This document shows positions 3,070-47,905 of a DNA stretch of 48,166 bases, one piece after another. The notes below the pieces were generated by a model that did not search any database, was not told where the DNA came from, and saw only the letters and a program-made list of their open reading frames with translations. Origin of the DNA: Dehalococcoidia bacterium (lineage in GTDB: Bacteria; Chloroflexota; Dehalococcoidia; Lucifugimonadales; VXLM01). A program made the translations under genes and the position numbers. The stretch is from contig VXLM01000120.1 in NCBI GenBank assembly GCA_009841605.1, positions 1-48,166 on the forward strand, in the 5' to 3' direction. Numbering within the stretch: the stretch's first letter is position 1; every line of letters begins with the position of its first letter.

Positions 3070-4254
3070 TTACTCTGGCTGATCGTCGCCTAGGACGCGA
3101 TACCCAAAGTTCTCCTCGGTCCTCTGGGCCGGGGGAAGGACCTCGACGACAGCCCTTGACAGCCCTACGACCTCGCCGTCTTCGTCGAAGCTGTAGTTGT
3201 CTCCGAGAGCGCCGCTCCAGGTGATGCCGTACAGACAGTCTCGAAATCCGTCGGCGTCCTGATCGTCTTTGGTCTGCCTGAGGCATTCCGCCGCGATCTG
3301 CACGTCGTCATAAGCCGAACCGAGGTGCCACGGCAGGGTTATATAATTGAAACGTTTCCGGAAGTTGGCAAGCACTTCCTGGGCCTTAGCGTTGTTGGGG
3401 TCGGGAGCGGCCGTGATTGCCTTGAGGCCTGTTGCCGCATCGCCCGCGATATTGAGTGCGGTCGTTCCCACCGTGATCGTTTCCCCGTAGATCGGCCCCT
3501 CATATCCCAGCTCTCGCGCCTGTTTGACGATGGTGCCCGCCGAGAACTCGGACTGCGGCGCTATGTGGAGAGCGTCCGGGTTGGCATCAATCAGCTTCGT
3601 CAGCTGCGATCGGAAGTCCGTGGTGTCGGAGCCGTATCGTTCCTCGGCGATGACCCTGCCGCCGTTCTTCTCGAACTGGGCAACCGAGGTGCGCCTCACA
3701 CCCGCGGCGTAGTCGGTCTCTTCTGTGATGGTGGCAAGCGCTTGGACTCCGTCCGCCCAAAGAACGTCGCCCGTTCTGATGCCCACCTCGATATCGCTGA
3801 TCTGCGTGCGGAAGATGTAGTCGCCCGCGTTGGCGATGTCGGGATTGCTGGCAAGGCCCGAAAAGAGCACCACTCCGTCAGCCTCGGCGAGCGGCGCTAC
3901 GCCGAGCATCGCGCCGCTGCACGATGTGCCGAGGATGATCTTCATCCCGTCCACGTCGGTGAGCTTGTTGTAGGCATTAATCGCGTCCTGAGCGCTGCAT
4001 TTCGAGTCCTCAACGACAAGCTCCAGCATACGCCCGTCGATCCCGCCCGCCGCGTTGATCTCGTCCATGGCCATCTGCTTGGCATTGTTGGCCACTTGCC
4101 CGTAGGTCTCACCCGCGCCCGTGAGGGATTCCATGACGCCTATCTGATACGGGCTGTCATCACCCTCCTCGTCCGTCCCGCAAGCCACGGCCAGAAGAAT
4201 GACCATTACCGGCAGTCCTATCGTGAAGATCGATTTCCAGGACGAGAATCGCAT
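3070..4254 (-). CDS. livK: Branched-chain amino acid ABC substrate-binding lipoprotein, copy 2
   Basis: 394-residue Liv-type binding lipoprotein and first gene of the importer locus. ATG at 4254 has an AAGGAG site eight bases upstream. The signal peptide is MRFSSWKSIFTIG plus a hydrophobic core and the lipobox LLAVAC; an acidic linker (GTDEEGDDS) precedes the fold. The body begins YQIGVMESLTGAGETYGQVA and matches copy 1 almost throughout, including the ILGTSCSGAMLG stretch and DDQDADGFRDCLY near the end. By eye the two are about 70 percent identical, indicating a tandem duplication that has diverged appreciably. Confidence 0.92.
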   Translation of the reverse strand: MRFSSWKSIFTIGLPVMVILLAVACGTDEEGDDSPYQIGVMESLTGAGETYGQVANNAKQMAMDEINAAGGIDGRMLELVVEDSKCSAQDAINAYNKLTDVDGMKIILGTSCSGAMLGVAPLAEADGVVLFSGLASNPDIANAGDYIFRTQISDIEVGIRTGDVLWADGVQALATITEETDYAAGVRRTSVAQFEKNGGRVIAEERYGSDTTDFRSQLTKLIDANPDALHIAPQSEFSAGTIVKQARELGYEGPIYGETITVGTTALNIAGDAATGLKAITAAPDPNNAKAQEVLANFRKRFNYITLPWHLGSAYDDVQIAAECLRQTKDDQDADGFRDCLYGITWSGALGDNYSFDEDGEVVGLSRAVVEVLPPAQRTEENFGYRVLGDDQPE

Positions 4255-31023: not shown

Positions 31024-31100
31024 GGCCCCGTGGTGTAGCGGTTTAACATACTGCCCTGTCAAGGCAGAGATCGCCGGTTCGAATCCGGTCGGGGTCGCCA
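31024..31100 (+). tRNA. tRNA-Asp (anticodon GTC)
   Basis: A complete cloverleaf of 77 bases including an encoded CCA. The acceptor stem GGCCCCG pairs with CGGGGTC (one G-T pair), and the discriminator base is G, as expected for Asp. The anticodon stem CTGCC/GGCAG encloses CTGTCAA with anticodon GTC at 31058-31060. The T arm reads CCGGTTCGAATCCGG. A promoter precedes it at 30961-30990; no clear terminator was found after it. Confidence 0.97.
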
Positions 31101-38754: not shown

Positions 38755-39711
38755 ATGCCTTCATCCTGGTACGACGCTTTTGTCCTCAATGCTTTGGTCA
38801 TTCTATTGGCAGTGGCGCTTGATCTTCTCTTGCCTGAGCCGCCTGCCATAGTCCACCCTGTAGTTTGGATGGGGAAAGCCATCAGCGCCTTTGAGCGTGT
38901 CGCGCCCACAGGACGGGTGGCAGGCCTCTTTTTCGGATGTGTAGTCGTCATCGTTATCGTGGGGCTTTCGGGTGGCATCTCTTGGCTCGCCATGGCGGCC
39001 CTTAGTGCTGTGGGACCAGCGGCCTACGTGATAGGTGGAGCGGTTATTCTCCGCACCTCATTCACGGTAAGGGGATTGATGTCGGCAGCGGATCGGACAC
39101 GCACAGCCTTGGAGGGAGGCCATTTGGACGAGGGGAAGGAGAGTCTGAAAAGCCTGGTCAGTCGCGATGCTGAGGACCTCAGTGCGTCGCTGGTGGCCGC
39201 CGCCGCGATAGAGTCGGTGGCCGAAAATACTACGGACAGCTTTATTGCACCATGGCTGGCGTTCGCGGTGTTTGGAGTGCCGGGCGCGGTCGCCTTCAGA
39301 GCGATAAATACGCTGGACAGCATGATGGGTACCCGAGGTCGGTACGAATACTTTGGCAAGACGGCGGCGCGTTTGGACGATGCGGTAAACCTCATACCCG
39401 CCCGATTGAGTGCATTACTGTTACTGGTAAGCGGCGGATTCAGTAGACTGCCGCTCGCTCGCGGGTGGCGGACCATGATGCGGGACCGGCACTTGACGGC
39501 CAGTCCCAATGCAGGCTGGACTATGGGCGCCATGGCAGGACTGCTTGGAGTCAGGTTGGAGAAGCCGGGACACTACTGCTTGGGCGAAGGTCTGCGTGAG
39601 CCGGAGACTGAGGATATCGGCAAGTCCATGGCCATGGCCAAGCAGACGGCGGCGCTTGGGATGGTCGCAATGCTGATCGTCCTCGCGGCAAGGCACGTCA
39701 TCTTTGGTTGA
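38755..39711 (+). CDS. cbiB: Adenosylcobinamide-phosphate synthase
   Basis: 318 residues, integral membrane protein. It joins (R)-1-amino-2-propanol phosphate to adenosylcobyric acid. Motifs: LDLLLPEPPAIVHPVVWMGK near the start, SRDAEDLSASLVAAAAIESV and AENTTDSFIAPW in the central loop, FRAINTLDSMMGTR, and DRHLTASPNAGWTMGAMAG near the end, all typical of CbiB/CobD. ATG at 38755 has no strong ribosome site. It lies upstream of cobQ on the plus strand, facing the riboswitch-controlled operon. Confidence 0.93.
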   Translation: MPSSWYDAFVLNALVILLAVALDLLLPEPPAIVHPVVWMGKAISAFERVAPTGRVAGLFFGCVVVIVIVGLSGGISWLAMAALSAVGPAAYVIGGAVILRTSFTVRGLMSAADRTRTALEGGHLDEGKESLKSLVSRDAEDLSASLVAAAAIESVAENTTDSFIAPWLAFAVFGVPGAVAFRAINTLDSMMGTRGRYEYFGKTAARLDDAVNLIPARLSALLLLVSGGFSRLPLARGWRTMMRDRHLTASPNAGWTMGAMAGLLGVRLEKPGHYCLGEGLREPETEDIGKSMAMAKQTAALGMVAMLIVLAARHVIFG

Positions 39712-39730
39712 GGGGAGACGAGTACCTAGA

Positions 39731-39826
39731 ATGGCAACGGTTCACGGCGGGTTGGATGAAGTGGGACTGCGCTCCCTGGGCGTCCTGCTGGCTCAAGCGC
39801 TAAAGGAAGTGATGGAGCATGAGTAG
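39731..39826 (+). pseudogene. 31-codon ORF between cbiB and cobQ, possible internally deleted CobD/CobC aminotransferase
   Basis: The frame starts with ATG at 39731 and its TAG overlaps the start of cobQ. The first 18 residues, MATVHGGLDEVGLRSLGV, resemble the conserved HGG...GL...LG opening of threonine-phosphate decarboxylases (CobD/CobC), and the last 13, LLAQALKEVMEHE, resemble the helical end of such aminotransferases. A full gene would have about 350 codons. This locus, between cbiB and cobQ, is a common place for that gene. The interpretation is inference; it may also be a short leader ORF that couples cobQ translation. Confidence 0.4.
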
Positions 39827-41345
39827 TCGCCGCACGGCCAAAGTCATCATGGTGCAGGGGACGTCGTCCCATGCGGGCAAGTCCGTGCTGGCTACCGCGC
39901 TCTGCCGAATCTTTGCCCAAGACGGTCTTCAGGTGGCCCCGTTCAAGGCGCAGAACATGTCGCTGAACTCGTATGCCACTCCCGATGGCGGTGAGATTGG
40001 TCGCTCGCAAGCAGTGCAGGCGTCGGCGGCAATGACGGCTCCGAGGGTGGAGATGAACCCCGTGCTGCTCAAGCCGGAGGGTGACAGGCGATCTCAGGTT
40101 GTGGTGATGGGAAAACCCATGGCTGTCGCCTCGGCGCGTGAATACTACGAGCTGAAGCCGATGATATGGGAGACGGTGACCTCGGCGCTGGCTACGTTGC
40201 GGGCAGACTATGACGTTGTGGTGATCGAAGGAGCCGGGAGCCCGGCGGAGGTCAACCTGAAGGAGCAGGACATCGTCAACATGCGCGTGGCCCTCCATGC
40301 CGACGCGCCGGTCCTGCTGGTTGGCGATATCGACCGCGGAGGCGTCTTCGCGCAGCTTGTCGGAACGATGGTCTTGCTAGAGCCGGAGGAACGAGCGCTG
40401 GTGAAGGGCCACGTCATCAACAAGTTCCGAGGCGACCCTTCGCTGCTCACATCGGGACTCGGTTTCTTGAAAGAACGAACCGGCGTGCCGGTCGCGGGGG
40501 TGATTCCTCACTTCTCGGACATCCACATTCCCGAGGAGGACTCCCTTGGACTGACCGCCGAATCCGACAATGTCGACGAAGCTGTGGTCGACGTTGCGGT
40601 CATGCGACTGCCGCATATCGCCAACTTCGACGATTTCGACCCGTTGCGTCACGAGCAGGGCGTCCGCGTGCGCTACGTGGGTCGTGCTGAAGAGTTCGGC
40701 GCCCCCGATCTCGTCATCATCCCAGGGAGCAAGACGACGATCGCGGACCTCGAATGGTTGCGCGTTCAAGGTCTCGAGGAGCGCATCCTGGTCGCGCGCG
40801 GAGGTGGGACGCCGGTAGTAGGCATCTGCGCGGGATACCAGATGCTTGGCGAGAGACTCCTTGACCCCGACCGAGTCGAGTCGTCCAGAGAGGAGGCGCA
40901 AGGCCTGGGATTGCTGCCAACGTCTACAACGTTCCTAGGAGAAAAATCCACGCATCAGGTGACCGGACGAGTGGCGGAAGGTGGAGGTCTCCTGAGTGGT
41001 TGCCAGGGCACAGAGGTCACGGCCTATGAAATCCACATGGGCGTTACGTCAGGGGATGTTCCTTCCCGGCCGTTCCTCTTGGAAACAAGATCAGGCGGGC
41101 GAGTAGACATGCCCGACGGCGCACTCGACGAAGAGGGGCTCACTCTGGGCACGTACCTGCACGGCCTCTTTCACAACAGAGCCGTGCGTCGCTCGGTGCT
41201 GGAGCATGTGGCGCGACGCAAGGGCGTGATCCTGCCGGACGCCGGGGAGGATGTCGAACCCAGCGCGGAGTACGACAAGCTGGCTGCTCTCGTACGCGAG
41301 AACCTCGACATGGAGCTGGTCTACCGCGTGACGGGGCTGGCGTAG
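39819..41345 (+). CDS. cobQ: Cobyric acid synthase
   Basis: 508 residues. Amidates four side chains of adenosylcobyrinic acid a,c-diamide using glutamine and ATP. The N-terminal ATPase domain begins VIMVQGTSSHAGKSVLATAL (P-loop variant) and FKAQNMSLNSY; the C-terminal class I glutamine amidotransferase domain has VVGICAGYQMLG with the nucleophile C337 and GTYLHGLFHN with the catalytic histidine. ATG at 39819 uses AAAGGAAG inside the short upstream ORF. Converges with cobU, 30 bases apart. Confidence 0.95.
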   Translation: MSSRRTAKVIMVQGTSSHAGKSVLATALCRIFAQDGLQVAPFKAQNMSLNSYATPDGGEIGRSQAVQASAAMTAPRVEMNPVLLKPEGDRRSQVVVMGKPMAVASAREYYELKPMIWETVTSALATLRADYDVVVIEGAGSPAEVNLKEQDIVNMRVALHADAPVLLVGDIDRGGVFAQLVGTMVLLEPEERALVKGHVINKFRGDPSLLTSGLGFLKERTGVPVAGVIPHFSDIHIPEEDSLGLTAESDNVDEAVVDVAVMRLPHIANFDDFDPLRHEQGVRVRYVGRAEEFGAPDLVIIPGSKTTIADLEWLRVQGLEERILVARGGGTPVVGICAGYQMLGERLLDPDRVESSREEAQGLGLLPTSTTFLGEKSTHQVTGRVAEGGGLLSGCQGTEVTAYEIHMGVTSGDVPSRPFLLETRSGGRVDMPDGALDEEGLTLGTYLHGLFHNRAVRRSVLEHVARRKGVILPDAGEDVEPSAEYDKLAALVRENLDMELVYRVTGLA

Positions 41346-41375: not shown

Positions 41376-41939
41376 CTAACCGAGGGAAGTATCGCCACTT
41401 CGAGTGGACGACTTGAGCTCCAACGGCAGTCCTGCGGCCATGAGGTACACGTCGTCGGCCTTCGCGGCCACGAGTTGATTCACACGACCTAACTCGTCGG
41501 TGTAGATCCGGCCCAGTTCGGTAGGAGGCACGACGCCAAGACCCACCTCGTTGCTGACGACGATCCAGGATGCGTTGCCGGTGCGGTACAGGTCCAGAAG
41601 CCTCTGAGTTTCCGCAAGGATGTCCTGCCGGGCCAACTCGACGTCCTGGTCTCTGAGCAGGAGATTGCTGACCCAGAGCGTCAGGCAGTCGAGCAGGACG
41701 GTGTCGTAGTGATGCTGCAGTGGCGTTAACGCCCCCACGAGATCGACGGGTTCTTCAAGGGTGTCCCAGTGGGGTGATCTGCTTTCACGGTGAGCCTCTA
41801 TGCGGGCCTGCATGTCCGCGTCACCTGCCTCGGCGGTGGCTACGAAGAGAACGCTTTCGCCCTTCGCGGCCAGCCTCTGGGCGTAGGCGCTCTTGCCCGC
41901 CCGGACGCCTCCTAGGACCAACGTCAGTCGCTTGCTCAT
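41376..41939 (-). CDS. cobU: Adenosylcobinamide kinase / cobinamide-phosphate guanylyltransferase
   Basis: 187 residues. It phosphorylates adenosylcobinamide and transfers GMP to make adenosylcobinamide-GDP. The P-loop is LVLGGVRAGKSAYAQRLA (the usual Ser before the Gly-Lys-Ser is Ala here), followed by FVATAEAGDADMQARI, RSPHWDTLEEP and LLDCLTLWVSNLL, then WIVVSNEVGLGVVP. Last gene of the riboswitch-controlled operon, separated from cobS by 84 bases that hold a 22-codon ORF overlapping this start. Confidence 0.94.
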   Translation of the reverse strand: MSKRLTLVLGGVRAGKSAYAQRLAAKGESVLFVATAEAGDADMQARIEAHRESRSPHWDTLEEPVDLVGALTPLQHHYDTVLLDCLTLWVSNLLLRDQDVELARQDILAETQRLLDLYRTGNASWIVVSNEVGLGVVPPTELGRIYTDELGRVNQLVAAKADDVYLMAAGLPLELKSSTRSGDTSLG

Positions 41940-42004
41940 GTGGTGCCCCCTCCGCTCGTTGATGTCAGTCGACCGGCGTCTCGTAGGAGGAACTGGCTTC
42001 CCAT
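41936..42004 (-). CDS. Possible 22-codon ORF overlapping the cobU start
   Basis: MGSQFLLRDAGRLTSTSGG begins at the ATG 42004-42002 and the TGA overlaps the cobU ATG in an ATGA arrangement. It could be a translational coupling leader or chance. No family is recognised. Confidence 0.2.
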   Translation of the reverse strand: MGSQFLLRDAGRLTSTSGGGTT

Positions 42005-42023
42005 CAATCGTCTCCGCACCTGC

Positions 42024-42785
42024 CTACCAAAGTGGTGTCTGATATAAGTCGGGAATCACACGAAACAGCGCAATCCCCAAGAGCAAAACTGTCACTTCCG
42101 TCAACTCGTTCACGGCGCCGTAGGTGTCGCCGGTCATGCCGCCGAGCATGCCGGATATCCAGCGGCCAAGCCCTAACGAAACGACGATAGCCGCACCCAG
42201 CAGCACCAGCCCGCCGATTCCAAGCAGCGCTCCGCCCGCCACTGCGGCAGTGGCGAATCCAAATACAACGTGCCACGGTTGAGCGCCGTCCTTGAACACC
42301 CTGCCGAGACCCTGCTCTCTGGCATAGGGGAAGGCGGCCATGGTGCACAGCATCCCAAAGCGCGACATGCACGGGAACACTACCAGTAGACCTATCTGGA
42401 GGTCGCCCATGATGCTCATCAGCAGACTCCACTTTAGGAGGATGAGCGCCGCGCCGCCAATCACGGCGAACGCGCCGACATGCGAATCTCGGAGTATTTC
42501 CAGTCGTCTCTCCGGCGAGTGACCGCCGAACAGGGCGTCGCAGGAATCGAGGAATCCCTCGGTGTGTATCGCGCGGGTCAACACGAGCATGGCTACGGCC
42601 AACAGCGCGCCCACTACGGGCGAAGGCAGAGCCTCCCTTGCCGCGAAATCCAGTGCGGCAAGGATGCCACCGAGCGCAAGTCCGACGAGAGGGAAATAGG
42701 CCCGCGCAGGCCCCATCTCCGCTGGGTCTCGCGGGGCGAACGGGAGGATCGTCAGGAATCCGACGGCCAGCCGCAGGTCTCTCAA
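42024..42785 (-). CDS. cobS: Adenosylcobinamide-GDP ribazoletransferase (cobalamin synthase)
   Basis: 253 residues, several membrane segments. It joins alpha-ribazole to adenosylcobinamide-GDP. The start is a TTG at 42785 that overlaps the cobT stop (TTGA); MRDLRLAVGFLTILPF matches the usual CobS beginning, supporting that start. Other motifs: FPLVGLALGGILAAL, TEGFLDSCDALFGGHSPERRLEILRDSHVGAFAVIGG, the conserved acidic loop that binds metal, and GDTYGAVNELTEV near the end. Confidence 0.93.
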   Translation of the reverse strand: MRDLRLAVGFLTILPFAPRDPAEMGPARAYFPLVGLALGGILAALDFAAREALPSPVVGALLAVAMLVLTRAIHTEGFLDSCDALFGGHSPERRLEILRDSHVGAFAVIGGAALILLKWSLLMSIMGDLQIGLLVVFPCMSRFGMLCTMAAFPYAREQGLGRVFKDGAQPWHVVFGFATAAVAGGALLGIGGLVLLGAAIVVSLGLGRWISGMLGGMTGDTYGAVNELTEVTVLLLGIALFRVIPDLYQTPLW

Positions 42786-43861
42786 TGTGCTCGTCCGTGT
42801 TCTTCATCGGGCTCCCTTTTGGAGACGCCCGCCTCGTCGAAGGTCGCCATGTCTGACAGGGTCGCAGCGGCGGCATCGATCAAGCCCATGGCCAGCACCG
42901 CTCCCGTCCCCTCGCCGAGCCTCATGTCGAGATCGAGGAAAGGCCAGAGCCCCATGTGCGACAGGGCGATGCGGTGTCCCGTCTCGGCGGACAGGTGCCC
43001 GGCGACGAGGTAGTCTCTGACGTTGGGGCAGAGGCTGTGCGCGATGAGACCCGCAGCGCCGGAGATGAAGCCGTCGAGCACGACGACCCGTCGGGCGAGC
43101 GCACCTCCCAGCACCACGCCGGCCAGCACGCCGATCTCGAATCCGCCCACCTTGGACAAGACATCGAGAGGGTCGTTGGGGTCGGGTAGGTTGACCTCCA
43201 TGGCGCGCTCGACCACGGCGATCTTACGCTCCAACTCACTGTCGTTTCGGCCCGTTCCTCGCCCCGTCGTCTCGCCCGGAGGCGTGCGAGTCAGGGCCGC
43301 GACAATTGCGCTCGACGCCGTGGTGTTGCCGATGCCCATATCGCCCGTGCCGATGATGTCGGCCCCGTTCTCAGCAGCCTCCAGCGCGAGCCGAATGCCT
43401 TCGTACATGCATGCCTCGGCTTGGTCGCGAGTCATGGCGGGGCCCTGCGTGATGTCGTCAGTCCCCCGTCCCACCGCGACTACGTGCAGTTCGGGATGGT
43501 CGGGCAGGGGAGTTGCCACACCGGCGTCGACGATTATCAGGTCAACCCCCGCCTTTCGCGCCATGACATTGATCGCCGCTCCGCCCCCGAGGAAGTTAAG
43601 CACCATCTGGGCTGTGACCTCTTTGGGATAGCCGGTTACGCCCTGCGCCACCACGCCGTGGTCACCGGCGGCCACGATGATCGTCTTGCCCCGCAGCATG
43701 GGTCGATCGGTGGCGAATATGCCCGCAAGCTGGATGGAGAGCGCTTCCAGTCGTCCGAGGCTGCCGGGCGGTTTGGTGAGACGCTCCTGTCGAAGCCGGG
43801 CGGCCCGCTTTGCCTTATGGTCGGCGGGTGTGATGCGCCCGATGACTTCGTCGAGACTCAT
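42782..43861 (-). CDS. cobT: Nicotinate-nucleotide-dimethylbenzimidazole phosphoribosyltransferase
   Basis: 359 residues, family length. It makes alpha-ribazole phosphate from nicotinate mononucleotide and a benzimidazole base. Motifs: RLTKPPGSLGRLE, IVAAGDHGVVAQGVTGYPKE, NFLGGGAAINVMARKAG, GDMGIGNTTASSAI, and the C-terminal HMGLWPFLDLDMRLGEGTGA which includes the catalytic Glu region. It overlaps cobS by four bases and starts two bases after cobO. Confidence 0.95.
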   Translation of the reverse strand: MSLDEVIGRITPADHKAKRAARLRQERLTKPPGSLGRLEALSIQLAGIFATDRPMLRGKTIIVAAGDHGVVAQGVTGYPKEVTAQMVLNFLGGGAAINVMARKAGVDLIIVDAGVATPLPDHPELHVVAVGRGTDDITQGPAMTRDQAEACMYEGIRLALEAAENGADIIGTGDMGIGNTTASSAIVAALTRTPPGETTGRGTGRNDSELERKIAVVERAMEVNLPDPNDPLDVLSKVGGFEIGVLAGVVLGGALARRVVVLDGFISGAAGLIAHSLCPNVRDYLVAGHLSAETGHRIALSHMGLWPFLDLDMRLGEGTGAVLAMGLIDAAAATLSDMATFDEAGVSKREPDEEHGRAH

Positions 43862-43863
43862 CG

Positions 43864-44439
43864 TCAGAACTCTATGCCGCGCTGCGCCTTGATGCCTTTG
43901 TCCTTGTAGGGGTGTTTAATCAGTTTCATCTCGGTGACAAGGTCTGCGCAGTCGATAAGCTCCTGCGGGGCGTACCTGCCTGTGATGATGACGTGCATCG
44001 TGTCCCGGCGGCTTTGCAGGGTTTCGACGACCTCCGAAACGGGGACCCAGCCGTAGTGCATTGCGTAGGTGAACTCATCGAGAACGATGATGTCCTCGTC
44101 GCCGTTCAGGATGGCTTCCTTGCAGTGGTCCCACTGCTCCATCGCGAGGGCGGCCGTGCGGTCCATGTCCTTGGAGAGCCAGGTGAATCCGTCTCCCATG
44201 GACTCGATCGGGATGTCGAGCTTCTTGGCCGCCCGGTGCTCGCCGAACCGCGCGCCCGTGTGCTTGATGAACTGGAACATCCTGATCTTGAAGTCCCGTC
44301 CCCACGCGCGGAATATCACTCCCAGGGCGGCGGTCGTCTTGCCCTTGCCCTCGCCGGTATTCACGATGACGAGGCCGTGCCTGACACGAGGCCCCTTGAC
44401 TACCTTCGTCGGGGGTGTCGCCGGATCGCGTTCGCTCAT
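43864..44439 (-). CDS. cobO: Cob(I)alamin / cob(I)yrinic acid a,c-diamide adenosyltransferase
   Basis: 191 residues of the BtuR/CobO/CobP type. It attaches the 5'-deoxyadenosyl ligand of coenzyme B12. LVIVNTGEGKGKTTAALG is the ATP-binding P-loop, followed by RIFRAWGRDF-like text (VIFRAWGRDFKIRMFQFIK) and DIIVLDEFTYAMHYGWV. The N-terminal 25 residues are polar. It lies between btuD and cobT with gaps of 10 and 2 bases, in the riboswitch operon. Confidence 0.94.
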   Translation of the reverse strand: MSERDPATPPTKVVKGPRVRHGLVIVNTGEGKGKTTAALGVIFRAWGRDFKIRMFQFIKHTGARFGEHRAAKKLDIPIESMGDGFTWLSKDMDRTAALAMEQWDHCKEAILNGDEDIIVLDEFTYAMHYGWVPVSEVVETLQSRRDTMHVIITGRYAPQELIDCADLVTEMKLIKHPYKDKGIKAQRGIEF

Positions 44440-44449
44440 GGGTCACCTC

Positions 44450-45337
44450 TCAGGCTGGATCTTTTACTCCGTGGCTGTCTGGGACTCTCGTCCTTTCAGC
44501 TACGGCGCTTGAGCGAAGTCCCGTTCCGTTTTGCGAGTGCTCGTCCGCAGGACCGATCAGGCTGATCGCCAGAGAACCCGTAATCGGGTCTTGGTACACC
44601 GCAGACTTCACGCCGAAGGCGGACTCAATCGTTTCCGGCGCGAGGACCTCATTCGGCGGCCCTTCGGCGAGCACTCGTCCGCCACTCAGCAGCACCAGCT
44701 TGTCGCAGTAGCGCGCCGCCATATTCAGGTCGTGGATGGCGGCAACGGCGGTGAGGCCGTCATCGACGAGCTGGCGCACGAGATCGAGCACCTTGAGCTG
44801 GTGAAGGACGTCCAAGTTTGCCGTGGGCTCGTCCATTAGGAGAATGCGGGGCTGCTGCGCCAGCGCCCGTGCGACGAACACGCGCTGCCGCTCTCCGCCG
44901 GATAGGGTGTCGAGCGTCCTATCGGCAAATTGTTCGATCTCGGTCAGCCGCATGGCTTCCCGGGCAATTCGGTCGTCTTCCCTCCCCTCGATCTGGAAGC
45001 GACCCAAGTGAGGATACCGGCCCATGAGGACAAGCTCCATGGAGGTGAAGCCGTAGGTGTAAGGCGCGATCTGGGGAACGAGCGCGAGGGTTGCCGCCGC
45101 GTCCTTTGGCGACATCGACATCAGGTCTGAACCTTCCAGATGTATCGAGCCCTGGCGATATCGCAGGATTCCCGATATCGTCCTTAACAGCGTCGTCTTC
45201 CCCGCTCCGTTGGGCCCGATCAGACCAACGAGTTGCCCGCGTTCGGCCTGGAGATCCACGCCGTCCAACAGCGTCTTCCCCTCGACCTCGTGGGTAAGGT
45301 TCTGTGCGCTGATTGCCTGTGGCCTGCTGCCGTTCAT
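44450..45337 (-). CDS. btuD: Cobalamin/iron-siderophore ABC transporter ATP-binding protein
   Basis: 295 residues. Walker A GPNGAGKTTLLRT, Q-loop LALVPQ, signature LSGGERQRVFVARALAQ, Walker B ILLMDEPTANLD and switch HDLNMAARYCDK. The FecE/BtuD type is indicated by operon position after a BtuF-like lipoprotein and a FecCD permease. The C-terminal 45 residues beyond the usual core (ISLIGPADEHSQNG onwards) are polar and probably disordered. Starts six bases after btuF. Confidence 0.92.
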   Translation of the reverse strand: MNGSRPQAISAQNLTHEVEGKTLLDGVDLQAERGQLVGLIGPNGAGKTTLLRTISGILRYRQGSIHLEGSDLMSMSPKDAAATLALVPQIAPYTYGFTSMELVLMGRYPHLGRFQIEGREDDRIAREAMRLTEIEQFADRTLDTLSGGERQRVFVARALAQQPRILLMDEPTANLDVLHQLKVLDLVRQLVDDGLTAVAAIHDLNMAARYCDKLVLLSGGRVLAEGPPNEVLAPETIESAFGVKSAVYQDPITGSLAISLIGPADEHSQNGTGLRSSAVAERTRVPDSHGVKDPA

Positions 45338-45343
45338 ATCGTG

Positions 45344-46474
45344 TTACTCGGCCAGACTGAAGGGTGTGTTCGATGGCTCCGGGAACTGCTCCGGCCAGAG
45401 AATCCGGGCGAGGTCCTCGGCACCGCGGATGTTCCAGTAGGAGAGCGTGGTGAAGTGCTTGCCCTCAACGATATGGACCTGGTCGTTCTTGATAGCCGGA
45501 ATCTCAGCGAGGGCCTCATTGGAGAGAAGTTCTTGACGGAACTCTTCAGCGCCGAACTCCAGGGGTTGGGCGATGAAGATGACATCCGGGTTCATGGCAA
45601 TGACACCTTCGAGGCTGGTTGTCTGGTTTCCTTCGATGCCGGCTTCCTCAGCAGCGTTGATGCCGCCCGCCGCCGTGATGACGCCGCCCTCGGTGGAGTT
45701 GCCTCCCGCCGTCCACAGCTTGTCGGAGTACTGCGTGAGTGCGAGCACCTTGGGCTTCGGCTCTGCCTTGCCGGTCACGGCTATGAGGGACTCGTGCCGA
45801 TCGCTCACCTCAGTCGCGAATTCGATGGCGCGTTCCTCCTCGCCAAAAATATATCCCATGAGGAGGATACTGTTAATCCGCGCCTCGGGGTCGTGCTTCA
45901 ACTCGGTCTGAACGACGGGTATCCCCGTTTTCGACAGAGCCTCGATCGCCTCCGCCGGGAAAAACGGGCTGGTGACGACCACGTCCGGCGCCTGGGCGAC
46001 GATTGTCTCCGGGTCGCGCGAGATCTCGGCTATGTCTTGGACTAGCGAGGCGACGTTGGAGTAGGTCGCGTTCTTCGTGGAGCTCCCCACTCCGACGAGC
46101 TGGTCCAGCGGCACAAGCGCTAGCGCCATTTCGTCGTGTCCCACGGAGGCGGTAATGATGCGCTCCGGCTTGGCGGGGATACTGACAAGGCCGTTCAGCC
46201 CCTCGACTTCACGCGGCCAGTCGAGGTTGGTCGGATCAATGATTCCCCGGACGCCTTTGAACGACTCGCTTAAAGGCACGGGTGTTGGGGTAGGTACGGT
46301 TGTCGGGATGGGCACCGCTGTCGGGACCGCCGTGGGGGCAACGGTGGGCACCGCAGTTGGGGCCTGTGTAGGAACTGCTGTTGGGGCCGGGGAATCCGAC
46401 GAACATGCCGCCAAAGCCAGTGCGGTAAGCATGGCTAGAAGGATTACGGGGAATCGAAATTGTCGCATGGTCAC
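45344..46474 (-). CDS. btuF: Corrinoid-binding lipoprotein of an ABC importer (BtuF-like)
   Basis: 376 residues from a GTG at 46474 with AAGGAG five bases upstream; an ATG two codons later is the alternative. Lipoprotein signal: basic start MRQFR, hydrophobic core, and LALAAC with the lipidated Cys at position 24. A 39-residue Pro/Thr/Ala/Val linker precedes the Fe/B12 periplasmic-binding fold: ERIITASVGHDEMALALVPL, AQAPDVVVTSPFFPAEAIEAL and NPDVIFIAQPLEF. Specificity for corrinoid is inferred from the riboswitch and cobalamin genes in the same operon. Confidence 0.9.
   Translation of the reverse strand: MTMRQFRFPVILLAMLTALALAACSSDSPAPTAVPTQAPTAVPTVAPTAVPTAVPIPTTVPTPTPVPLSESFKGVRGIIDPTNLDWPREVEGLNGLVSIPAKPERIITASVGHDEMALALVPLDQLVGVGSSTKNATYSNVASLVQDIAEISRDPETIVAQAPDVVVTSPFFPAEAIEALSKTGIPVVQTELKHDPEARINSILLMGYIFGEEERAIEFATEVSDRHESLIAVTGKAEPKPKVLALTQYSDKLWTAGGNSTEGGVITAAGGINAAEEAGIEGNQTTSLEGVIAMNPDVIFIAQPLEFGAEEFRQELLSNEALAEIPAIKNDQVHIVEGKHFTTLSYWNIRGAEDLARILWPEQFPEPSNTPFSLAE
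46274..46390 (-). repeat. PTAVPT-type tandem repeat encoding the BtuF linker
   Basis: Residues 29-67 of the lipoprotein consist of imperfect copies of (A)PTAVPT, ending IPTTVPTPTPVP. The DNA repeats are degenerate, so the repetition is older at protein level. It probably forms an extended spacer between the lipid anchor and the binding domain. Confidence 0.75.
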
Positions 46475-46502: not shown

Positions 46503-47582
46503 TTATAGAGAGTAGGTCTGACGCTTGTTTTTGATGAGTAGGAAGATGAAGAACGGCGCGCCGACGAAGGCCGTCAGAACGCCCACACGGAACTCTGCCG
46601 GCTGGACGATGGTCCTTGCGACGGTATCGGCGATAATGACGAAGACGGCTCCCCCCGCGGCGCTCATGGGGATCAGGACTCGATGGTCGGGTCCGAGCAC
46701 GAGACGTAGGATGTGCGGCGTCACGAGGCCGACGAAGGCGATGGTGCCGCTAACCGCCACGGCCGCCCCCGTCCCCAGGGCCGCCGCCGCCAGGAGGACC
46801 GGACGGGCCATGCCCACCCGGACGCCCATGGAACGGGCCTCGTCGTCGCCCAGCATGAGCAGGTTCAGATCGCGTGCCATGAGTACGATCACGGCGGTAG
46901 CGCCGAGGATGAGCGGCGCGGAGATGCGGACGTGCTCCCAGGAGCGCGAGTCGAGTCCTCCGGCAAGCCAGAAGAGTATCTCGCGGAGCGCCTCGTTGTC
47001 AGGTAGGAGGATGATGATCGCGGAGACGACCGCGCCGAGGAATGCGTTGACCGCCACTCCCGCGAGCAGGAGGGTGGCCATAGAGAAGCGCCCGCCGACC
47101 GCTGCTATGCCGTACACAAGGAACGAGGCCGCTATGGCGCCCACGAAGGCGAAGGTGGGGAGAGCGAGGAAGAACAAGCCTGTCAGGCCCGTGGCGATGG
47201 CGACGACCGCGCCCACCGCTCCGCCCGCGGAGACGCCGATGATGCCGGGATCCGCCATGGGGTTGCGGAAGAGGCCCTGCATAGTGGCTCCTGCCACCCC
47301 CAAGGCCATCCCAACCGAAGCGCCTACGACGATCCTGGGAAGCCTGATCTGCTCGATGACGAGCTGCTCGGTACGTCCGAAATCGGCCAGATTGAGGCCG
47401 AAGTATGACAGCAGAATGGAGGCGACATGACTTGCGGGTATGTTAACCGGCCCGAGACTCAGTGAGATGAGTGCGGTTGCCAGAATAAGCAACAGCAGGG
47501 CGGATGAGCCAACGGCCAACCGGGTGGAGACGCCCGACTGTCGATAGCCCCGCAGCGCCGTTATGCTCGCCGTCCTCAACAA
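46503..47582 (-). CDS. btuC: Cobalamin ABC transporter permease, FecCD family
   Basis: 359 residues with about ten membrane helices. LRLPRIVVGASVGMALGVAG-like motif (IRLPRIVVGASVGMALGVAG), MQGLFRNPMADPGIIGVSAG and SGTIAFVGLVTPHILRLVLG are FecCD/BtuC hallmarks. The start is a TTG at 47582 with GGAGG six bases upstream; the GGAGG lies in the 3' arm of the riboswitch terminator and the TTG overlaps the T-run. A second TTG follows immediately. First gene of the cobalamin operon. Confidence 0.9.
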   Translation of the reverse strand: MLRTASITALRGYRQSGVSTRLAVGSSALLLLILATALISLSLGPVNIPASHVASILLSYFGLNLADFGRTEQLVIEQIRLPRIVVGASVGMALGVAGATMQGLFRNPMADPGIIGVSAGGAVGAVVAIATGLTGLFFLALPTFAFVGAIAASFLVYGIAAVGGRFSMATLLLAGVAVNAFLGAVVSAIIILLPDNEALREILFWLAGGLDSRSWEHVRISAPLILGATAVIVLMARDLNLLMLGDDEARSMGVRVGMARPVLLAAAALGTGAAVAVSGTIAFVGLVTPHILRLVLGPDHRVLIPMSAAGGAVFVIIADTVARTIVQPAEFRVGVLTAFVGAPFFIFLLIKNKRQTYSL

Positions 47583-47617
47583 AAAAGACCTCCGCGGCTC
47601 TCCGCATGAGGTCTTTG
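47581..47617 (-). terminator. Intrinsic terminator of the cobalamin riboswitch
   Basis: On the minus strand AAAGACCTC (47616-47608) pairs with GAGGTCTTT (47592-47584), with an inner GCGG/CCGC stem, and the hairpin runs into a T-tract of about six bases ending at 47581. Placed between the aptamer and btuC, it is the expression platform. The 3' arm contains the btuC ribosome-binding GGAGG. Confidence 0.9.
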
Positions 47618-47685
47618 CTTCGCTCCGTTCGGGACATATGCCCGACGACCGAGGGACCCTCTCTAAGGCGGAGAGCGGTCACCTT

Positions 47686-47847
47686 CCGTTCAGGCAGGTC
47701 TCCTGGCTCGCGGATGGATTCTCTTCGCCTCGCCCTTCCCATCGAGTGCTCGACAGTGGGCTTCGGCCCCAAATCCCGCATACAGTGGCGCTACCGCGGC
47801 GGACTCTCACCGCCTTCCCTATTCTCCCTGGGTGGGCACCTGAACGG
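47686..47847 (-). ncRNA. Cobalamin riboswitch (B12 aptamer)
   Basis: On the minus strand the conserved elements occur in order: AGGTGCCC, AGGGAA, GGTGAGAGTCCGCCGCGG, CGCCACTGT, and the B12 box AGCCAGGAGACCTGCC. The closing P1 stem is a perfect 9-bp pairing of CCGTTCAGG (47847-47839) with CCTGAACGG (47694-47686). High adenosylcobalamin would favour the closed aptamer and shut off the operon of import and lower-ligand assembly genes. Confidence 0.96.
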
Positions 47848-47875
47848 GCAGTGCTTCTATGTGATTGTGCCAGTG

Positions 47876-47905
47876 ATAATATGACCCTCGACGGAGGGCT
47901 GTCAA
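47876..47905 (-). promoter_or_regulatory. Consensus sigma-70 promoter of the cobalamin operon
   Basis: TTGACA (47905-47900) and TATTAT (47881-47876) are 18 bases apart on the minus strand. The spacer contains the inverted repeat CCCTC-CGTC-GAGGG. The predicted transcript start near 47869 gives a leader of about 290 bases containing aptamer and terminator. Confidence 0.85.

Follow-up and report, generated by a model that had tools for sequence, protein, structure and literature searches.

The leader of the btuC gene in a marine SAR202-type Dehalococcoidia raises the question of whether one and the same hairpin might stop transcription as the terminator of a cobalamin riboswitch and, in those transcripts that escape it, hide the ribosome binding site of a gene whose first codon lies in the terminator tail. 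The stretch of DNA analysed as a whole, referred to as the window, is 48,166 nucleotides long; the nearest relatives of its source are metagenome-assembled genomes of SAR202 and of other Dehalococcoidia, with the best BtuC relative (85% identity) found in a SAR202 bin. On the minus strand, the elements follow one another in the order promoter, aptamer, P13, spacer, hairpin, U6 and btuC. The putative promoter (47876-47905, sigma-70-like, TTGACA-18-TATTAT) is proposed from a consensus match only, at 11 of 12 positions; its TTGACA is found again at a comparable position in several relatives. The aptamer (47676-47858) matches the cobalamin riboswitch family RF00174 over its full length (1-189) with 104.8 bits (cut-off 31.5, E 2.3e-26), represents the only RF00174 match in the source genome, and is predicted to bind adenosylcobalamin or a related corrinoid. 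The gene that follows, btuC (46503-47582, minus strand), encodes the permease of a B12 ABC transporter (Pfam FecCD, 314 bits) and precedes, on the same strand (41376-46474), btuF, btuD, cobO/btuR, cobT, cobS and cobU (Pfam Peripla_BP_2, ABC_tran, CobA_CobO_BtuR, DBI_PRT, CobS and CobU, respectively). The seven genes, whose Pfam matches place the aptamer in the leader of B12-related functions, cover B12 import, adenosylation and nucleotide-loop assembly and, because of their close spacing on the same strand, probably form one B12 uptake and salvage operon. On the opposite strand, cbiB-like and cobQ-like ORFs (38755-41345, judged from their translations) run towards cobU and have no riboswitch of their own. 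Elsewhere in the window, a tRNA-Asp (GTC; 31024-31100, plus strand) is the sole other structured RNA detected, and two adjacent, similar ORFs on the minus strand (1715-2983 and 3070-4254), resembling substrate-binding proteins of branched-chain amino-acid type ABC transporters, witness a tandem duplication.

The hairpin at the btuC junction occupies positions 47584-47616 of the minus strand and is composed of a 5' arm (AAAGACCUC), a loop side (GCGGAGAGC, 47605-47597) and a 3' arm (GAGGUCUUU); its stem is formed by AAAGACCTC (47616-47608) and GAGGTCTTT (47592-47584), with an inner stem TGCGG/CCGCG and the loop AGAG. The 3' arm embeds GGAGG (47593-47589), all the bases of which are paired in the hairpin. 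Since the 3' end of the 16S rRNA of the same genome is GGCTGGATCACCTCCTTT, which contains CCUCC, this motif is a full Shine-Dalgarno (SD) match. Six bases (47588-47583) separate it from the TTG at 47582-47580, the first candidate start of btuC, which is located 1 nt beyond the last paired T (47584) and shares the last two bases of the U6 tail (47586-47581). This placement of the motif in the terminator arm, its spacing and the overlap between the TTG and the T-run had been noticed before from the sequence, and all three proved exact. The isolated 33-nt hairpin folds with -20.3 kcal/mol, and just one in 200 dinucleotide shuffles of the 101-nt junction is at least as stable as the junction itself (z -2.86); in its minimum-energy fold, the tail UUUGUU, UUG included, is also paired with AGCGAA (47624-47619). 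The tail score, of the d'Aubenton-Carafa type, is 5.45, against a median of 2.27 at control sites, where a value of 3.5 is reached by 3.7% of 813 sites. A simple terminator scan is not significant on its own (one found, 1.1 expected), and the case therefore rests on comparative data.

RF00174 is present in 176 of the 197 genomes of the order. The comparison of leader-btuC junctions in relatives, which had been suggested as a check, was carried out on 62 distinct leaders with a btuC-like gene downstream, most of them from the same order. The shared layout was defined as an SD-like motif paired in a hairpin stronger than -15 kcal/mol and located 2-12 nt before the start; it was recovered in 51 of the 62 leaders, 45 of which start with TTG and 6 with GTG, whereas the ordinary SD-preceded ORFs of the same loci start with ATG (16), GTG (15) and only in 3 cases with TTG. 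A terminator-like tail (score of at least 3.5) follows the hairpin in 47 of the 51 leaders, a far larger share than among the control sites. The same trend is observed when the 28 btuC leaders with GGAGG are compared with 451 other GGAGG sites drawn from related loci: in the 8 nt after the motif, at least five T are found in 89% of the leaders versus 0.9% of the other sites, and at least six in 46% versus none, the mean number of T being 5.6 versus 1.59 (1.79 in the 8 nt of 34 real SD-to-start spacers). An SD sequence in the terminator, with a TTG start, is the rule in this order. The sequence-only reading had considered a first codon in a terminator tail to be unusual; the survey does not bear this out, and the class to which such leaders belong had already been described (PMC2258182). 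In the close group GGAGG is almost invariant, and RNAalifold recovers the sequestor hairpin with scant covariation, the SD side not being free to change. Leaders of related genomes do not count as independent, but in more distant groups the same layout is built from quite different stems (CCTCCAGC/GCTGGAGG, ATCCCTGCC/GGCAGGGAT and ACCCTCGAC/GTCGAGGGT); these groups combine strong U-tails with a weaker SD-like motif (AGGG or GGGA), and sequestration may be less important there. In the fourth genome of the genus (G001), the cobalamin riboswitch match is only weak, at 40.8 bits, and BtuC is matched in part nearby; this genome is absent from the leaders with the shared layout.

As for the start of btuC, a second in-frame TTG, absent from the sequence-only reading, is located at 47579-47577 (spacing of 9 from GGAGG), and apart from the two TTGs there is no start ahead of the constrained coding region. 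In codons 3-25, the changes at the first, second and third positions are 1, 0 and 10 relative to one of the two closest relatives and 1, 1 and 4 relative to the other, i.e., 10/11 and 4/6 of them fall at third positions; the frame is therefore translated from directly after the TTGs. This test was performed on the two closest relatives, as length differences spoilt the use of 15. Upstream of the TTGs, no change is found in 128 nt in the closest relative, and a single base, within the hairpin, differs in the second one. In several relatives, the TTG adjacent to the hairpin is the sole in-frame start ahead of the conserved part of the protein, and the frame of one leader (L007) is closed by a stop six bases upstream of it; the btuC leaders compared do not share any later start codon preceded by a ribosome site of its own. 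The proposal that btuC begins at the TTG is thus supported by coding-type change from codon 3 and by relatives devoid of an alternative, with the refinement that the start would be either of the two TTGs, between which the sequence does not discriminate.

Between the aptamer and the hairpin, P13 (47655-47676, minus strand) pairs CUCUC (47675-47671) with GAGAG (47663-47659) around the loop CGCCUUA and is kept in relatives. Its two strands, GCUCUCCGC (47676-47668) and GAGAGGGUC (47663-47655), are predicted to serve also as the strands of an antiterminator/antisequestor: the former is the exact reverse complement of GCGGAGAGC, in the 5' side and loop of the hairpin, and the latter would pair with GACCUC, in the 5' arm, this second pairing being nested within the first. 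Both pairings would disrupt the terminator and free GGAGG. P13 alone reaches -6.6 kcal/mol and the antiterminator duplex -23.5 kcal/mol, so the antiterminator, in which a P13 strand is complementary to the 5' side of the terminator, is the stronger of the two. As long as the 3' arm is missing, the nascent RNA adopts the antiterminator fold (-34.4 kcal/mol), and the full RNA adopts the terminator fold (-49.6 versus -35.5 kcal/mol with the 3' arm kept free). Since the terminator is favoured by about 14 kcal/mol at equilibrium, the ON state has to be maintained kinetically, and the sequence of folds, with a weak P13, implies that a ligand-stabilised P13 would decide the outcome during synthesis.

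The P13 strands are co-evolving with the 5' arm of the hairpin. When the P13 region of each of the 51 leaders was paired with its own hairpin, the mean duplex energy was -22.7 kcal/mol, compared with -20.2 (sd 0.45) with permuted partners; permutations as good as self-pairing were 0/3000 overall and 11/3000 within groups, counts that are not true probabilities in view of the kinship among leaders, and a spacer control had the opposite sign. Compensatory changes relative to CUCUCCGC/GCGGAGAG are present in L085 (CUCUUCGC/GCGAAGAG) and L134 (CUUCGU/ACGAAG); likewise, GCGGA/UCCGC is changed to GCGAA/UUCGC in L085, L029 and L194, and to ACGAA/UUCGU in L134. On the aptamer side, the loop next to the GAGAG loop is L5, GCGGUAGCGCC, whose GCG is complementary to the CGC of L13; this complementarity is conserved, no covariation being seen, and is consistent with an L5-L13 kissing loop. 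A different switch, in which the GAGAG aptamer loop would pair with GCUCUC, was rejected, as relatives carry GAAAAU at the loop while CUCUCC is constant.

On the whole, it appears probable that an OFF-type cobalamin riboswitch with a dual expression platform controls this btuC-led operon. When a corrinoid is bound, L5 of the aptamer would kiss L13 and keep P13 closed, so that the downstream hairpin would form and RNA polymerase would stop at the U-tract; in a transcript that had been read through, GGAGG and the UUG start would lie inside the same hairpin and ribosomes would be blocked. In the absence of corrinoid, both P13 strands would form base pairs with the hairpin, in its 5' arm and loop, acting at once as antiterminator and antisequestor, so that transcription would proceed with GGAGG free. 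Of the proposal that one hairpin plays two roles, the combination of an intrinsic-terminator shape with a buried SD sequence stands on comparative evidence, while the mechanism itself is what we infer from it.

Other explanations of the same hairpin can be envisaged. It might merely hide the SD sequence, the U-rich tail being an incidental spacer. Leaders that look translation-only do exist: L007, L017 and a related lineage of another class (L209, L210, L214, L216, L217, L222, L223 and L225) keep P13, the hairpin and the SD sequence, with the U-run replaced by TGAGGC, TGGGGC or CAGGA. Judging from these poor tails, termination is not universal, and the near-invariance of GGAGG in the close group also agrees with a purely translational control. 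Yet the U-richness after the stem is far above that of other GGAGG sites and of real SD-to-start spacers, and the distant groups hold strong U-tails even though their SD motif weakens, which makes this explanation an unlikely one for the leader analysed here. In the tail-less lineage, the start is GTG in L217, L222 and L223 (position 124 after the B12 box) and TTG in others, as if the U-tail had held the start at TTG.

Even less credible is an ordinary terminator whose overlap with the SD sequence is incidental, with translation beginning further downstream. The strong conservation of the U-tail would fit it, and so would three leaders of the same order (L090, L101 and L104), which look transcription-only, with a terminator and then a separate start some distance on; against it, codons 3-25 evolve like a coding sequence, several relatives offer no alternative in-frame start upstream of the conserved region, and the lineage without the U-tail retains the SD sequence and the hairpin. 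A constitutive hairpin not wired to the aptamer, to which the equilibrium stability, far above that of the alternative fold, might point, is the most improbable of all, given the co-evolution of the P13 strands with the 5' arm, the preference of the nascent RNA for the antiterminator and an intact aptamer.

Returning to the dual platform, the start appears to be UUG because the U-tract fills the place required for it, five to ten bases past the SD sequence. There is an even chance, in our judgement, that in this order the terminator, the ribosome-site sequestrator and the start codon have been fused into an element of about 45 nt, the U-tract of which gives the UUG, and that its layers can be lost separately, loss of the tail leaving a translation-only leader in which UUG is free to become GUG, and detachment of the terminator leaving a transcription-only one. 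In L090, L101, L103 and L143 the terminator tail reads T6-7 GTTG, with a TTG that is not likely the start; a U-run followed by GUUG seems to be a common terminator tail in this order. A layout nearly identical to that of the leader analysed here is also found in L208-L210, L214, L216, L217, L219, L222, L223 and L225, from genomes listed in the same phylum and in another class, which suggests either that the B12 operon was transferred together with its riboswitch or that the bins are misplaced.

Predictions of dual platforms exist for single leaders, but their retention in evolution has seldom been demonstrated; in the present survey, the SD sequence in the terminator, the UUG in the tail and a co-evolving antiterminator are retained in dozens of related leaders, and the natural one-layer variants are ready controls for measuring the contribution of each layer. 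Should the fusion have occurred as proposed, the order could serve as a natural series in which to study what leads a riboswitch to rely on a single layer, whichever it is, or on both. In addition, a btuC start that is a UUG inside a terminator is easily miscalled in annotation. The kind of platform is already known; the part for which no description was found in the literature searched, the coverage of which is incomplete, is its lineage-wide fixation with UUG in the tail, and no paper on SAR202 cobalamin riboswitches was found in the same search.

Dual transcription and translation attenuation was named as a class by Barrick and Breaker in 2007 (PMC2258182), who defined it by a terminator that lies within 10 nt of the start and whose 3' side contains the ribosome binding site. 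In the btuC leader, the post-aptamer hairpin (-20.3 kcal/mol, U6, tail score 5.45) is 1 nt from the TTG and has GGAGG paired in its 3' arm, and the leader is best read as such a platform, both layers of which are predicted to act in the cell. Like those platforms, it has the ribosome binding site within the 3' side of the terminator, beside the ORF; it differs from them in the UUG start in the U-tract, in the order-wide conservation and in a P13 antiterminator that would also be an antisequestor. In the metE riboswitch of P. megaterium (PMC10653944), P13 is stabilised by the kissing loop and one of its strands acts as the antiterminator, a logic established by mutation; the btuC leader would share the repressing logic, the P13 strand as antiterminator and a P13 weaker than the antiterminator, whereas metE is described as transcriptional and here both P13 strands are predicted to pair and the SD sequence lies in the terminator. 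In the E. coli btuB riboswitch (summarised in PMC10653944), an L5-L13 kissing loop promotes the hairpin at the ribosome binding site, as it would here; btuB, however, is translational and has no intrinsic terminator at the start codon. Finally, the c-di-GMP riboswitch Bc1 of B. thuringiensis (PMC11218506) likewise joins a riboswitch leader and terminators to a combined effect on transcription and translation, but with two terminators, no ligand response in vitro and an incoherent dual effect, whereas both layers of the btuC leader are expected to work in one direction.
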